Below, piece by piece: positions 15,971-39,708 of a DNA stretch of 53,669 nt (positions within the stretch are counted from its first letter, which is position 1; each line of letters starts with the position of its first letter). The translations under genes and the position numbers were made by a program. This DNA is from Fibrobacter sp. GTDB taxonomy: Bacteria > Fibrobacterota > Fibrobacteria > Fibrobacterales > Fibrobacteraceae. Location of the stretch: positions 1-53,669 of the forward strand of contig JAFVTX010000008.1 in the NCBI GenBank assembly GCA_017503015.1, in the 5' to 3' direction. Under the pieces are notes generated by a model. That model had not been told where the DNA came from, did not search any database, and saw nothing but the letters and a program-made list of their open reading frames with translations.

Positions 15971-17146
15971 TTATAGCGTTGCGTGAGCCGCGATCTTGTA
16001 GATTTCGGTCACGTCCTTCGCCTTGAGCGGAACAAAGCCCCAGCCGTCACCCGGATTGAGTTTTTCCACCATCTTCGGGATGTCTTCTTCTTTAGCACCG
16101 AGTTCAGCGAAGTTGATGGGCATGCCGATGGAATGCAAGAACCGGCGGAAAGCCTTGATGCCTTCGAGGGCGGTGGCCTTCGGGTTTTCAAAATTCATCT
16201 CGCAGCCGAACACGCGGGTCGCCATCTGGGCAAAGCGCATCACGTTGTGGTCTACCACGTATTCCATCCAGGAGGGCATGATGACCGCAAGGCCCGCGCC
16301 ATGGGCGCAGTCGTAAAGCGCCGAAAGTTCGTGCTCGATGGCGTGGCTGTTCCAGTCCTGACTGCGCCCGCAGCCCACAACACCGTTGTGGGCTACCGTC
16401 CCCGCCCACATGATGTTCGCACGCACCTGGTAGTTGGCGGGGTCGGCAATGGCGCGCGGGCCCTCCTTCACCATCGTGAGGAGCACCGCTTCGCACAGGC
16501 GGTCGGTGATTTCCACTTCCAGCGTGTTCGTGAAGTAGCGTTCAAAAACGTGGGCCATGATGTCGGTAATGCCGCAGGCCGTCTGGTAGGCAGGCAACGT
16601 GCAAAGGAGCGCCGGATTCTGCACCGCAAACTTCGGACGAATGTGCTCGCTGCTGGCACCCCGCTTGAGCATGCCGTCTTCCTTGGTCACCACGGAGTCG
16701 CCGCTACCCTCGGAACCGGCGGCCGCAATGGTCTGCACCACGCCTATGGGGAGCGCACATGCCGCCGAGGCCTTGCCCTCGTAAAAATCCCAGAAATCGC
16801 CCTCGTAAGGAACGCCCATGGCAATGGCCTTGGAACTGTCGATGGTAGAGCCGCCGCCCACCGCAAGGATAAAGTCGATGCCGTTCTGGCGGACAATCTC
16901 GATGCCCTTGTACACGAGCGAATCGTGCGGGTTCGGCTTCACGCCGCCAAGTTCCACATGGGGGATTCCTGCAGCGTCGAGGCTCGCCTTCACCCGGTCG
17001 ATGAGGCCTGAACGCACGGCAGAACCGCCACCGTAGTGGATAAGCACCTTGGTGCCACCGTATTTTTTGACAAGCGCACCGCATTCATTTTCGCGGTCCA
17101 TACCGAATACAAATTCTGTGGGGCTGTAAAAATTGAAATTTTCCAT
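15971..17146 (-). CDS. Iron-containing alcohol dehydrogenase (butanol dehydrogenase-like)
   Basis: The 391-residue group III alcohol dehydrogenase starts MENFNFYSPTEFVFG, close to the YqhD/BdhA subgroup. The nucleotide motif GGGSTIDSSKAIA lies at about residues 97-109. Metal-ligand motifs DIMAHVFERYF, AIEHELSALYDCAHGAGLAVIMP are intact. It would reduce aldehydes to alcohols with NAD(P)H in the cytoplasm, for fermentation or aldehyde detoxification. The gene is monocistronic. Its upstream region holds one copy of the 41-bp repeat shared with the far side of the Rpn gene. Confidence 0.92.
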   Translation of the reverse strand: MENFNFYSPTEFVFGMDRENECGALVKKYGGTKVLIHYGGGSAVRSGLIDRVKASLDAAGIPHVELGGVKPNPHDSLVYKGIEIVRQNGIDFILAVGGGSTIDSSKAIAMGVPYEGDFWDFYEGKASAACALPIGVVQTIAAAGSEGSGDSVVTKEDGMLKRGASSEHIRPKFAVQNPALLCTLPAYQTACGITDIMAHVFERYFTNTLEVEITDRLCEAVLLTMVKEGPRAIADPANYQVRANIMWAGTVAHNGVVGCGRSQDWNSHAIEHELSALYDCAHGAGLAVIMPSWMEYVVDHNVMRFAQMATRVFGCEMNFENPKATALEGIKAFRRFLHSIGMPINFAELGAKEEDIPKMVEKLNPGDGWGFVPLKAKDVTEIYKIAAHATL

Positions 17147-17194: not shown

Positions 17195-17235
17195 TTGCCG
17201 TTTTTGGCCAAAATTCGTGTACAAAAAGAACCAAA
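17195..17235. repeat. 41-bp direct repeat, copy A (flanks the Rpn gene)
   Basis: This 41-base stretch starting TTGCCGTTTTTGGC and ending AAAAAGAACCAAA is repeated at 18403-18443 with one mismatch (GGCC versus GGTC). The copies are 1,208 bp apart and bracket the Rpn gene. Confidence 0.9.
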
Positions 17236-17256
17236 AGCGACCCCTAACGGGGCCGC
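17232..17256 (-). terminator. Probable terminator of the Rpn gene
   Basis: Read on the minus strand, GCGGCCCC-GTTA-GGGGTCGC (one mismatch) is followed by TTTTGG and then CTTTTTG. It adjoins repeat copy A. Confidence 0.6.
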
Positions 17257-17286
17257 CTTGAATTTTTCGCACTAAATGCCTAGGGT

Positions 17287-18201
17287 CTATTTCCCTAGAA
17301 TCTGTTCCTTGGAATACCCAAAGTAGGAAACGGCTTTTTCAAGAGAAATCGCGCCATCGGCCACCATCTTCCTGGCGGTTTCAAGCTTTTCCGCCTCGGC
17401 CTTTTGACGTTCTTCCGCTAGTTCTCTGCGGAACTCGTCTCCGGCACTCACAAAGCCGTACTTTTGTCCAATACTTACAAATGCCATATCCAGTTCCTTT
17501 AGAGCGTCTCTGCCTATATACTCCTTCAAATATACACTTATTTTTTCCAATATGCAAGTAGCTTCTTTGTGTGGCATCTTGCGCAGCGATTCCTTGAATC
17601 GGGGCAACAATTCAAGCAATTTGTCCTTGTCATATGCATACTTCATTGCCACGATACCCATTGCCGTTGCGGTATCTTCGCAAGCAAAACAGTCGCTGTC
17701 CGGAATATCCGCCATATTCACGAAGGCACAACGGAACGGAAGCACGACCCTCCGAAAGAATTCAGGGTAGCCATCTTCAAGGTGGCTTATGGGATTCCAG
17801 TTCGCCTTTCCGTTATAGAAAATAATCGCCATAGTAGGCAACCCGTCAAAAATGCGATTCCTGTCATAACGTTTCATCAAGGTCCGCACATAGCGGGCAA
17901 CCTGATTAAGCGTATCAGGATCCTGTCCCGACTTGTGTTCCACCAGGATGCCCACAAGAACAGGTGCTCCTGTCGAGACATTCACGCGAAACGCAAGGTC
18001 CGCCTCGCCGGTGTCATCCACTTCGGAATAGGAATCGGGTATCCGGACCAGGGTGTCCAAGTTTACCGCATCAATAAATTCGCTGACATCGCGGTTTACC
18101 TTGGCTGAAAGTTCCAAGAGTAGCCTAAGACGGTCAACGTCGGCAAAAAGCCAGCGAAAAAAGGAATCGTGTTTACGTTTATTCGTATTTTTATCGTCCA
18201 T
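17287..18201 (-). CDS. Rpn/YhgA-family PD-(D/E)XK nuclease (recombination-promoting)
   Basis: The 304-residue protein matches the Rpn (transposase_31/YhgA-like) family. It starts with KRKHDSFFRWLFADVDRLRLLLEL and continues to a PD-(D/E)XK core: Asp68 in GEADLAFRV and Glu88-x-Lys90 in LVEHKSGQD, followed by NQVARYVRTLMKRYD. The C-terminal part is charged and ends with FGYSKEQILGK, a typical tail. E. coli Rpn proteins are DNA nucleases that raise recA-independent recombination. Codon use looks more AT-rich than neighbours. It is a single-gene unit with its own terminator, bracketed by 41-bp direct repeats, consistent with acquisition. Confidence 0.88.
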   Translation of the reverse strand: MDDKNTNKRKHDSFFRWLFADVDRLRLLLELSAKVNRDVSEFIDAVNLDTLVRIPDSYSEVDDTGEADLAFRVNVSTGAPVLVGILVEHKSGQDPDTLNQVARYVRTLMKRYDRNRIFDGLPTMAIIFYNGKANWNPISHLEDGYPEFFRRVVLPFRCAFVNMADIPDSDCFACEDTATAMGIVAMKYAYDKDKLLELLPRFKESLRKMPHKEATCILEKISVYLKEYIGRDALKELDMAFVSIGQKYGFVSAGDEFRRELAEERQKAEAEKLETARKMVADGAISLEKAVSYFGYSKEQILGK

Positions 18202-18402
18202 AAATTCTCCATGACCATACGCGTTGAACGACCGCGCCGGCCGCTAAGGGTTGATCCCCAGTCTATACCGGGAATAAAAATTGTAGGTGATATGGAAAGG
18301 CGACCTGGTTCAGGTCGGCAAAGTCAAGGCAGCTTGCCTAGACCGAATGTAGCCAATATACAAAAGACCCTCGCTCAAAAGCCAGTCAAAAATCCTCATT
18401 TT
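18202..18402. other. Gene-free leader between Rpn and the small ribosomal-protein gene
   Basis: No ORF with protein character is seen. It holds two small inverted repeats, GCGACCTGGTTCAGGTCGGC near 18300-18320 and AAGGCAGCTTGCCT near 18328-18342, that could be RNA structure. It is followed by repeat copy B. Confidence 0.4.
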
Positions 18403-18443
18403 TTGCCGTTTTTGGTCAAAATTCGTGTACAAAAAGAACCAAA
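18403..18443. repeat. 41-bp direct repeat, copy B (flanks the Rpn gene)
   Basis: It matches copy A (17195-17235) at 40 of 41 positions in the same orientation. It ends two bases before the -35 hexamer of the downstream gene. Confidence 0.9.
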
Positions 18444-18517: not shown

Positions 18518-18613
18518 ATGCCTTGCGGAAAGAAAAGAAAGCGCAGGAAGATTGCGACTCACAAGCGCAAAAAGCGCCGTCGTCGTGACCGTCACAAAAA
18601 GAAACTTCGCTAA
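18518..18613 (+). CDS. Small basic AURKAIP1/COX24-domain (bS22/mS38-like) ribosomal protein
   Basis: This 31-codon gene is below the usual calling threshold. The peptide starts MPCGKKRKRRKIATHKRKK and ends RRRRDRHKKKLR; about two-thirds of residues are Lys/Arg/His. The pattern KKRKxxIxxHKxxKRxRxxRHKKK is the COX24/AURKAIP1 signature, known from mitochondrial small-subunit protein mS38 and the mycobacterial protein bS22; similar short proteins occur in Bacteroidota relatives. It would bind rRNA in the small ribosomal subunit. Support is strong: a promoter with exact TTGACA, GGAG seven nt before the ATG, and an intrinsic terminator after the stop. The ribosomal role is inferred from family knowledge. 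Confidence 0.85.
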   Translation: MPCGKKRKRRKIATHKRKKRRRRDRHKKKLR

Positions 18614-18638: not shown

Positions 18639-18668
18639 AAAACGGGGTGCCAACACACTCCGTTTTTT
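18639..18668 (+). terminator. Intrinsic terminator of the bS22/mS38-like gene
   Basis: An 11-bp stem (AAAACGGGGTG / CACTCCGTTTT, one G-T pair) with loop CCAACA is followed by more T. It overlaps the GTG at 18647, which argues against that GTG as the start of the helicase gene. Confidence 0.85.
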
Positions 18669-18706
18669 CGTGTAACCCGACACCGCCACGGAGCCGAAAA
18701 AACCGA

Positions 18707-20848
18707 ATGCAGATCCAGGGATCCATCAAGAACGTCACCTACCAGAACCCGGCCAACGGCTTTACCGTGCTGAAGGTGGTGATTTCTGATACGGGCAAGG
18801 TGGCGGTAGTCACCGGGAATTTTCCTGCACTCACTCCCGGCGAGAACCTGCGGTTTGAGGGCGAATGGGGCCGCCACCCCAAGTTCGGCGAGCAGTTCAA
18901 GGCCTCGGGTTTCGAAATCCTGAAAACAGGCGACGGCAACCTGCGGGACTACCTGGCCAGCGGGCTGTTCCGGGGCATCGGGCCCAAGACCGCCGAACGC
19001 CTGGTGGAGGCTTTTGGAGACGCCCTGCCAGAGGTGCTAGACTGCCACCCCGAAAGGCTCTCCGAGGTAAAAATCAAGGGTATCACTCCCAAGAAGATGG
19101 CGGAGTTCCTGGCCAGCTGGCAAGAGGCCCGCCTGAGCCGCGAAACCATGCTGTTCCTGTACAGCCACGGCATCGTGGGCAGTACCGCCAAGCGGCTGTG
19201 GAGCACCTACGGCGAAGACACCATCCCAAAGATCAAGGAGAACCCCTACCTGCTCTGCGAAGAGGTGTGGGGTATCGGGTTTGCAAGCGCCGACGAAATT
19301 GCCATGAAGCTGGGCCTACCGAAGGACAGTCCCATGCGGTTCCAGGCGGCGCTGCTCTACTCCCTGCAGGAATCGTCCTTCAACGAAGGTCACGTGTACC
19401 TGCCCAAGGACGCCCTGCTGGACCGCACCCTCAAGAACCTGCGGATAGACAACTTTGACGACGACGCGGTTCAAATTCTGATGGAGCAGTTCGAAGGCCT
19501 GTGCAAGAACGGGCGCATTACCCGCGTAGGCGACGACTGCTTTTACCCGTCTATGTTCCGGGCCGAAGATTCCGTGGCACGGAATATCGCGCTTCGGCTA
19601 CAGCGGAACACGCTCCCCACCGAAGGTTTCGAGCAGTACCTGGTGAGCTGGGAGCGGGAACACAAGTTCAGTTTCGACCCGGTGCAAAGGCAGGCCATCC
19701 AGATGGCGCTGTCCCACAAGTTCTCCATCGTCACAGGCGGCCCCGGCACGGGAAAGACCACGATACTCAAGGGCATATTGCATCTTGCCAACCAGATGGG
19801 CGAATCCGTGCTGCTGGCTGCCCCAACGGGCCGTGCCGCCAAGCGCATGGAAAGCCTCTGCGGAGCGCCCGCGAAGACGCTGCACCGCCTTCTGGAAATG
19901 GACCCCGTGTCCAAGAAGTTCAACAGGAACGTAGGCAACCAGCTGCACTGCGACCTGTTGATTGTAGATGAATTCAGCATGGTGGACACCTGGCTTGCAT
20001 CGTCATTGCTAGAAGCCGTGAGCCTTCGGGCACGAATCCTCTTGGTAGGAGACGCCGACCAGCTGCCAAGCGTAGGACCGGGCAACGTGCTGAACGACCT
20101 GCTGCAATGTCCGAAAATCCCGAGCGTGCGTCTGCAGCACATATTCCGGCAGGCCAGCGGCAACGACATCGCCGACAAGGCGGCCAAAATCAACCAGGGC
20201 ATCATGCCTGCGCCTATCGACGGGCCCAACTTCCACTTTATGCCCTACGAGACTCCCGAGGAGGCCCTAGGCATATTGCAGCAACTGGTCACCACAGGCG
20301 TGCGCTCCAAGCTGGACATCGACCTGAAAAGCGACCTGCAGATTCTAGCCCCCATGCGCAAGGGCCCGCTGGGCGTGTTCGAGCTGAACCAGTTCCTGCA
20401 AAGGCTCATGAACGGCAGCGCCCAGAAATTCAAGATAGGCGGCACCGAATGGGGCGCTGGCGACCGGGTGATGCAGACCACCAACAACTACGACAAGAAC
20501 GTGTTCAACGGTGACGTGGGAATTATCTTCAACGTCAAGAAGGACAAGTCCGCCATGACGGTCTTCTTTGACGACAAGACGGTGGACTACGAAGGCGATG
20601 AAATAGAAGACCTGCAGCTGGCCTACGCCTGCACCATCCACAAGAGCCAAGGCAGCGAATACCCCGCCGTCATCGTGATTCTAGACTCCAGCCACTACGT
20701 GATGCTCCAGCGGAACCTGCTTTATACGGCCATCACCCGCGCGAAAGGACACGTGTGGGTACTTTCCGCACCCGGAGCGTTCCACCAGGCCGTCCGCAAC
20801 AACCGCAGCACCAGACGGTACACGAGGTTAAAAGAGAGATTGGGGTAA
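18707..20848 (+). CDS. recD2: RecD2-like SF1B DNA helicase
   Basis: The 713-residue protein has the RecD2/RecD-TraA layout. An N-terminal OB-like domain opens with MQIQGSIKNVTYQNPANGFTV. Helix-hairpin-helix segments follow (YLASGLFRGIGPKTAERLVEAFG). The helicase core contains Walker A GGPGTGKTT, motif II VDEFSMVD, LVGDADQLPSVG, and motif VI YTAITRAKGHVWVLS. It should move 5' to 3' on single-stranded DNA in repair. An in-frame GTG at 18647 would extend it by 20 residues, but that GTG lies inside a terminator stem and family members start at the MQIQG-like position. No recB or recC homologue is nearby, as expected for RecD2. Confidence 0.9.
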   Translation: MQIQGSIKNVTYQNPANGFTVLKVVISDTGKVAVVTGNFPALTPGENLRFEGEWGRHPKFGEQFKASGFEILKTGDGNLRDYLASGLFRGIGPKTAERLVEAFGDALPEVLDCHPERLSEVKIKGITPKKMAEFLASWQEARLSRETMLFLYSHGIVGSTAKRLWSTYGEDTIPKIKENPYLLCEEVWGIGFASADEIAMKLGLPKDSPMRFQAALLYSLQESSFNEGHVYLPKDALLDRTLKNLRIDNFDDDAVQILMEQFEGLCKNGRITRVGDDCFYPSMFRAEDSVARNIALRLQRNTLPTEGFEQYLVSWEREHKFSFDPVQRQAIQMALSHKFSIVTGGPGTGKTTILKGILHLANQMGESVLLAAPTGRAAKRMESLCGAPAKTLHRLLEMDPVSKKFNRNVGNQLHCDLLIVDEFSMVDTWLASSLLEAVSLRARILLVGDADQLPSVGPGNVLNDLLQCPKIPSVRLQHIFRQASGNDIADKAAKINQGIMPAPIDGPNFHFMPYETPEEALGILQQLVTTGVRSKLDIDLKSDLQILAPMRKGPLGVFELNQFLQRLMNGSAQKFKIGGTEWGAGDRVMQTTNNYDKNVFNGDVGIIFNVKKDKSAMTVFFDDKTVDYEGDEIEDLQLAYACTIHKSQGSEYPAVIVILDSSHYVMLQRNLLYTAITRAKGHVWVLSAPGAFHQAVRNNRSTRRYTRLKERLG

Positions 20849-38302: not shown

Positions 38303-38354
38303 ACTCTCGGCGGAAACGGTTCTTACTTGTAAAACATCGAGGGAGAGATTTGTT
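38303..38354. repeat. Direct repeats flanking the RhuM gene, left copies
   Basis: ACTCTCGGCGGAAAC (38303-38317) and ACATCGAGGGAGAGATTTG... (38334-38354) recur in the same order and orientation at 39498-39512 and 39688-39708. Confidence 0.85.
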
Positions 38355-38361
38355 TAAAAAT

Positions 38362-38391
38362 TTGCCCTTTCCTGGTTCTGTTTTGTATATT
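38362..38391 (+). promoter_or_regulatory. Candidate promoter of the RhuM gene
   Basis: TTGCCC (38362-38367) and TATATT (38386-38391) are separated by 18 nt. A transcript would start near 38398, just before the leader hairpin. Confidence 0.55.
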
Positions 38392-38400
38392 ACCCCGCGA

Positions 38401-38467
38401 AAGTCGTATTTCCATATCCCATAGCAGCCAAAATAGGCTGCGGGCTATGGAAATACGACTTTTTTTT
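38401..38467 (+). terminator. Terminator-like hairpin in the RhuM leader (possible attenuator)
   Basis: A perfect 16-bp stem (AAGTCGTATTTCCATA, 38401-38416, with 38446-38461) encloses a second 6-bp stem (GCAGCC / GGCTGC, loop AAAATA). Seven T follow (38461-38467), immediately before the GGAGG ribosome binding site at 38468-38472. Confidence 0.8.
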
Positions 38468-38476
38468 GGAGGTAAA

Positions 38477-39481
38477 ATGAGCAAAAAGGATAAAATTGAG
38501 ATTCCCGACCAGGTCGGGAACGAAAACAGGGGCGAAATCGTGCTTTACCAGCCGGAAGGCGAAGTCCGGCTGGAAGTGCGTGTAGAAAACGAGACGGTGT
38601 GGCTTACGCAAGCACAGATGGCTGCGCTGTTCGAAAGAGAGCGTTCCGTCATCGCAAAGCATATCAAAAACGTATTCAAGGAGGGCGAACTGGATTCAAA
38701 AGTGGTATGTGCAAATTTTGCACATACCACTCCCCATGGCGCAATTAAAGGGAAAATGCAGATTTCTGAGGTCGTCCTGTACAACCTTGACGTAATCATC
38801 TCTGTCGGCTATCGCGTTAAATCTATTGCTGGCACGCGTTTTCGCCAGTGGGCAAATCACGTCCTTAAAGACTACATGCTCAATGGCTATGTCGTGAACC
38901 AGCGAAAGCTATCGACCGATTTGCAGATTGCGGACCGTCTGCACGAACAGCGGCAACTCATCGAGAGCCAGGGAACAGAAATCGCGGATGTCCGGAAGTC
39001 TATTGCCGAACAGGATTCCCGGCTTTCTGCAGTCGAACAACGTATAGACTTTTTCGTGAATGCGGCACAAACTCCAACGGGTGGAATTCTTACGACTGGA
39101 ACGCGGTTTGACGGGTTTATACTGATTTCGGATCTTGTGAAAACCGCCAAAAAATCCGTAGTATTCATCGACCCGTATGCCACCGTCGAGGTGCTAAAAT
39201 TCGCGGCCATGCGGGCGAAAGGTGTCTCGGCGACAATCTACTCCCCGAGAATTACACCCGAATTCCAAGCTGCAGCAGAATTGCACAAAAAGCAGTACCC
39301 AAATTTAGAACTGAAGACCATGCGCACGATTCACGACCGTTTTCTTCTGGTCGATGACACTGTATATCTTTTTGGCGCAAGTTTCAAGGACATGGGTAAC
39401 GAGATGACGGCTTTCAGCGTGCTGGATTTTGTGACACCGGAGGAAGTCATCGAGAAAGTGAGGGAAAGCACGAAGGGGTAA
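38477..39481 (+). CDS. RhuM-family protein with C-terminal PLD-like domain
   Basis: The start at 38477 (MSKKDKIEIPDQ) is chosen because GGAGG lies 4 nt upstream and an earlier ATG (38447) falls in the hairpin stem. The 334-residue protein has the RhuM domain about 18-150: LTQAQMAALFERERSVIAKHI, YNLDVIISVGYRVKS and FRQWANHVLKDYMLNGY. A helical linker about 150-195 follows, then a phospholipase-D-like fold about 210-330 (VVFIDPYATVEVLKFAA, IHDRFLLVDDTVYLFGASF), where the HxK pair reads His-Asp-Arg. RhuM proteins occur in mobile and defence-island settings; function unproven. The gene is bracketed by direct repeats, has a terminator-like leader and a 31-bp internal palindrome. Confidence 0.85.
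   Translation: MSKKDKIEIPDQVGNENRGEIVLYQPEGEVRLEVRVENETVWLTQAQMAALFERERSVIAKHIKNVFKEGELDSKVVCANFAHTTPHGAIKGKMQISEVVLYNLDVIISVGYRVKSIAGTRFRQWANHVLKDYMLNGYVVNQRKLSTDLQIADRLHEQRQLIESQGTEIADVRKSIAEQDSRLSAVEQRIDFFVNAAQTPTGGILTTGTRFDGFILISDLVKTAKKSVVFIDPYATVEVLKFAAMRAKGVSATIYSPRITPEFQAAAELHKKQYPNLELKTMRTIHDRFLLVDDTVYLFGASFKDMGNEMTAFSVLDFVTPEEVIEKVRESTKG
38701..38731. repeat. 31-bp near-perfect palindrome inside the RhuM coding sequence
   Basis: The arms AGTGGTATGTGCAAA (38701-38715) and TTTGCACATACCACT (38717-38731) are exact complements around a single base. They encode part of VVCANFAHTT. Confidence 0.9.
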
Positions 39482-39497
39482 AAAAACTTAGCGAAAG

Positions 39498-39708
39498 ACT
39501 CTCGGCGGAAACTCGCAGGGACTAACAGTCACAAGAGTTTCCTCCTGCAGAAACGATTTTTGCCCAAAAAAAGTCTTGACCGCAAAGCACTTGTGAACCA
39601 GAGCCATTTTTTTTGTTTATTGACCGAGATGTGAGTTTCTCGAGTGAACAGTCGAACGAAGTGAGTCCCTGTGAACGAGAGATATTCACATCGAGGGAGA
39701 GATTTGTT
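39498..39708. repeat. Direct repeats flanking the RhuM gene, right copies
   Basis: ACTCTCGGCGGAAAC (39498-39512) and the ACATCGAGGGAGAGATTTG... repeat (39688-39708). The distance between the two units is 190 nt here against 31 nt on the left, so about 159 extra bases lie between them. Confidence 0.85.

Follow-up and report, generated by a model that had tools for sequence, protein, structure and literature searches.

How did a single nuclease gene come to stand between two nearly identical 41-bp direct repeats, and to which side of the event, the incoming gene or the recipient site, do the repeats belong? The locus lies in what we call the window, the whole 53,669-nt stretch of DNA that we examined from a rumen Fibrobacter genome (G000); the relatives that matched it are also titled Fibrobacter. 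The repeat (TTGCCGTTTTTGGYCAAAATTCGTGTACAAAAAGAACCAAA) occurs on the forward strand at 17195-17235 (copy A) and at 18403-18443 (copy B). The copies are identical at 40 of 41 positions, start 1,208 bp apart and leave 1,167 bp in between, which confirms the length, match and spacing that a first-pass annotation of this DNA had reported around the nuclease gene.

The 1,167-bp unit (17236-18402, reverse strand) carries the Rpn nuclease gene (17287-18201, reverse strand; 304 aa; PF04754, YhgA-like), the only substantial open reading frame with a family match between the repeats; the unit has no integrase gene. The intrinsic terminator of the Rpn gene (17234-17259, reverse strand) has its last stem bases and T-rich tail within copy A, so the tail is supplied by that copy. 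Copy A lies on the side of the left neighbor, an iron-containing alcohol dehydrogenase (ADH) gene (15971-17146, reverse strand; Pfam Fe-ADH, 2.5e-40), which holds this position at filled and empty sites alike in our genus comparison. Copy B lies directly upstream of the promoter (CCTTGACA) of the right neighbor (18518-18613, forward strand), a gene for a 31-aa basic protein that is conserved upstream of RecD2 in relatives. This protein had no match in the Pfam search and is called bS22-like here by resemblance only. The RecD2 helicase gene itself (18647-20848, forward strand; TIGR01448, 6e-244) served as the right flank.

Allowing up to three mismatches, a search of the window returned copies A and B only, and 100 shuffles of the window gave zero matches to the 41-bp repeat. 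The whole of the same genome, searched with a 30-base core and up to three mismatches, again contained only these two copies. Across the genus the sequence is confined to one locus, where it was found in about a dozen close relatives. The first-pass annotation had named a common dispersed repeat as a finding that would count against it, and this reading is ruled out by the specificity of the repeat to one locus across genome and genus. We found no attC-like hairpin and no stable fold in the repeat.

To compare the locus among relatives, we searched 80 genomes of the genus with copy B and the downstream gene and found the locus in 74. Seven genomes (G006, G007, G048, G014, G056, G068, and G065) have an empty site with one 41-bp copy and no Rpn gene, so the empty site between the same neighbors that the annotation had suggested looking for does exist. 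At these seven sites the ADH and bS22-like genes directly adjoin; the ADH-side match reaches 17235, the bS22-side match runs from a point between 18401 and 18410 onward, and the two overlap on a single repeat copy. Six of them were aligned over long flanks, and in these the junction overlap measures 40-43 bp and the insert 1,208 bp. In two further genomes (G049 and G050), the single copy is accompanied by an unrelated ~200-bp insert that lies closer to ADH. The Rpn insertion of G000 is shared by G055 and G073, both repeat copies being present in each; copy B of G055 ends at 35 bp, interrupted by a further insertion. This second insertion (L077; G055:C17) is ~3.2 kb long, carries a lipoprotein-like gene and abuts copy B on the right. 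The intergenic site has therefore taken up foreign DNA twice.

A single copy also occurs in outgroup genomes, partly diverged there, which indicates that the 41 bp pre-existed as ordinary intergenic DNA. As empty sites have one copy and filled sites two, the 41 bp is recipient DNA that was duplicated when the 1,167-bp unit entered. These comparisons support the view that the gene plus one repeat copy constitutes an insertion, and we infer that the event was a gain. In pairwise comparisons of the region, other length changes of at least 150 bp showed no junction duplication. The right part of the repeat is kept in the outgroups, where the sequence to its left no longer aligns, and this conservation hints that the right part may be regulatory.

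The inserts of G055 and G073 are 94% identical to that of G000 over all 1,167 bp, and their divergence is close to that of the flanks in the same genomes. The insertion is therefore old and probably one event. One old insertion inherited by three lineages seems the best fit, and it most likely took place in the ancestor common to G000, G055, and G073. In trees of ADH and of bS22 plus RecD2 the filled genomes did not form a supported clade, and the flanks have been shuffled by recombination; an older insertion with later losses is thus possible. G007 or G049 may have lost the insert, either through replacement or because the repeats recombined. Within genomes, the number of mismatches between copies A and B is 1 in 41 positions for G000, 3 in 41 for G073 and 2 in 35 for G055. 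The base at position 22 of the repeat is not constant, either between copies or between genomes, a pattern for which one clean duplication alone does not account.

The Rpn protein matched PF04754 over residues 10-213 (E = 9.4e-15; 55.2 bits, cut-off 21). The PD-(D/E)XK residues D68, E88, and K90 are present and are invariant in all 121 aligned Rpn proteins of the genus; judged by its sequence, the inserted gene is predicted to be catalytically intact. A search of solved structures by sequence returned no relative, and collections of plasmids, phages, and viral contigs yielded no relative of the window Rpn. When window positions 17287-17500 were compared with L077 and L078, the same-site orthologs were found to vary in the C-terminal tail: that of G055 has a 7-aa insertion and that of G073 has different last ~30 residues. 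This suggests that tails may be exchanged between Rpn paralogs. Candidate internal starts for RpnS, the small C-terminal antitoxin, are ATG codons that lie in frame at residues 209 and 239. Elsewhere in the genome, an RpnS-like open reading frame of 101 aa (L105:2604-2910, reverse strand; G000:C73:55607-55873) corresponds to the Rpn C-terminus only and stands alone beside a gene resembling ttcA, at a position that complete Rpn genes occupy in G006, G007, G050, and G065. This frame may represent an orphan antitoxin. Repeated short fragments matching the C-terminal coding end of Rpn occur in G017:C95, G012:C194, G035:C4, and G067:C8, some of them near full Rpn genes.

Rpn genes occupy many sites in the genus, in tandem arrays at some of them, and we scanned all 121 for flanking repeats. 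Most had no significant flanking repeat and long ones were rare, so direct repeats on both sides are not a general feature of Rpn genes. Only the window locus, one of the 121, showed a clean duplication of a single-copy target. The strongest other repeats (L063, L068, L069, L086, and L292) were read as promoter duplications in tandem Rpn-type arrays; for L068, L069, and L292 the second gene was assigned to the nuclease relatives on inspection of its sequence rather than through a family search. The repeats of L059 and L284 were read as shared terminators, and those of L258, L248, and L260 were inspected briefly. L257, with perfect 33-bp repeats at a spacing of 1,200, at first resembled the window locus but was not counted as the repeat is multi-copy locally: members of a small gene family end in it at their 3' side, and it occurs several times in the island and also near other genes. 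In accessory islands of G033, G030, G031, G037, G034, and G032 (L337, L338, L339, L340, L341, and L344), a ~40-bp sequence that forms the 3' end of a small gene family occurs repeatedly and delimits units of 0.8-1.4 kb. The units contain different genes, Rpn in one case. These islands look like a cassette-like hot spot.

Other Rpn loci were compared with relatives lacking the insertion. At locus I the gene was cleanly inserted where two genes overlap, at locus II an intergenic region has been replaced, and neither has a target duplication; for locus IV one flank only was found in relatives, so the junction is unreadable. Rpn units of another subfamily have common 5' and 3' ends at several loci; the window unit differs from them at its 5' end, and unit ends vary between Rpn loci. 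To gauge the background, we scanned 31 further genes of the window in the same way and obtained one flanking repeat of note. There, a RhuM-family gene (38447-39481) lies between perfect 21-bp direct repeats, one at 38334 and one at 39688 (span 38334-39708). The same gene with near-identical repeats is present in G007, and a search for an empty site returned none.

The explanation that we favor, and consider probable, is that a single-gene Rpn unit was acquired horizontally and captured once, by a break-associated integration that involved no transposase and duplicated 41 bp. The incoming unit would have consisted of its own 5' region, the gene and the terminator stem, and would have entered the divergent ADH/bS22-like intergenic (promoter) region from outside. 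A break there may have taken up the rpn DNA with no dedicated transposase at work, and the duplication at the junctions would stem either from a stagger in that break or from repair synthesis, over about 41 bp. Ku was not found in the genome, which makes classical end joining an unlikely route of capture. In E. coli, RpnA cuts DNA nonspecifically and, when overexpressed, increases RecA-independent recombination (PMC5350276). The Rpn protein could thus help to make or use breaks, and its own nonspecific cutting possibly promoted the capture. The insertion left a complete upstream region for both neighbors and was therefore probably tolerated. Recombination between the repeats would bring back the empty site, and the product would look exactly like a natural one. 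Such a deletion is plausible: in an E. coli plasmid with 46-bp repeats the intervening gene was lost in recA-deficient cells (PMC5426353). The natural empty sites, for their part, may simply be ancestral or stem from allele replacement.

Another possibility is that a circle holding Rpn and one 41-bp copy was excised from the same site in another strain and integrated at the single copy by homologous or site-specific recombination. The product would be exactly identical to what we see, and the 41 bp is shared and locus-specific. However, 41 bp is short for RecA-dependent integration, the unit encodes no integrase, its repeat forms no attC-like hairpin, and a circle would account for the spread of the unit rather than for its origin. 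A precedent exists in E. coli, where a ~13-kb island that has no recombinase of its own is excised between imperfect direct repeats (PMC5426353). We regard the circle route as unlikely.

It could also be that the two-copy Rpn state is ancestral and that the gene disappeared from the empty genomes, through exact recombination of the repeats or through allele replacement. On the RecD2 side the empty genomes G007 and G049 do group with filled genomes. The single copy of G007 matches copy A of both G000 and G055 at every position, and the flank affinities of G007 shift along the region. On the other hand, every outgroup genome is empty, so that an ancestral filled state would need several independent exact losses, and as a general account of the locus we find it unlikely too. 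We also consider it improbable that Rpn nucleases, or the breaks they make, now and then bring about the capture of their own gene at a fresh site, leaving a target duplication of tens of bp. Rpn would then be a minimal mobile gene, independent of transposase, whose traces are normally erased by later recombination.

The first-pass annotation had entertained a self-moving cassette. In its strict form, a true one-gene mobile element with defined ends that Rpn moves as its transposase and that leaves a long target-site duplication, this has some appeal: the insertion is clean with a duplicated target, PF04754 carries the name 'putative transposase', a phage-family match is filed under integration and excision, and Rpn genes are found at many sites of the genus. 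We nevertheless consider it very unlikely. Among the inverted repeats listed (18 nt or longer), none pairs the two ends of the insert. The unit has no second location in the genus genomes and no constant ends, ends being unlike between loci. The 41-bp type of duplication is missing from the other Rpn genes, including the clean insertion at locus I and the replacement at locus II. Published comparisons likewise describe rpn genes as gained and lost singly, with variable ends and without inverted repeats or target duplications (PMC10327210). Finally, coincidence, a dispersed repeat or an assembly artefact could draw on the fact that the flanking repeats of other Rpn genes are duplicated promoters or terminators only, and is refuted almost beyond doubt by the arrangement common to three separate assemblies, the blank shuffles and the mere two copies in the genome.

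The window locus resembles several known systems in part. Like an insertion sequence, the unit lies between duplicated recipient stretches and has a single-copy empty site. Unlike one, it lacks terminal inverted repeats, a second copy and constant ends in relatives, and the duplication does not recur at other Rpn sites as it would for a transposon. At 41 bp it is also longer than the duplications usual for insertion sequences. Integron or XerCD single-gene cassettes similarly hold one gene per unit bounded by direct repeats; here no other cassettes share the repeat, and it has no attC-like hairpin. Integrative elements with attL and attR differ in that the window unit has no integrase gene. 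The E. coli H47 island (PMC5426353) shares with it direct repeats, the lack of its own integrase and natural empty sites. It is 13 kb long while the window unit is 1.2 kb with one gene, and H47 excises while excision of the window unit is hypothetical.

The closest likeness is to Rpn/YhgA-like genes themselves (PF04754, COG5464), with which the window gene shares the family match, the PD-(D/E)XK residues, the variable C-terminal tail, gain and loss of single genes between relatives, and tandem arrays elsewhere in the genus (PMC5350276, PMC10327210). These genes were already known to come and go singly and to act in anti-phage defence. In contrast to the published rpn genes, which have varying ends and no target-site duplications, the window insertion has a clean 41-bp duplication and is an exception to the published statement of no duplication (PMC10327210). 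The locus offers a rare clean view of how an Rpn defence gene enters genomes: a dated insertion together with natural empty sites gives exact junctions, with which both the mechanism of capture and precise loss become testable.
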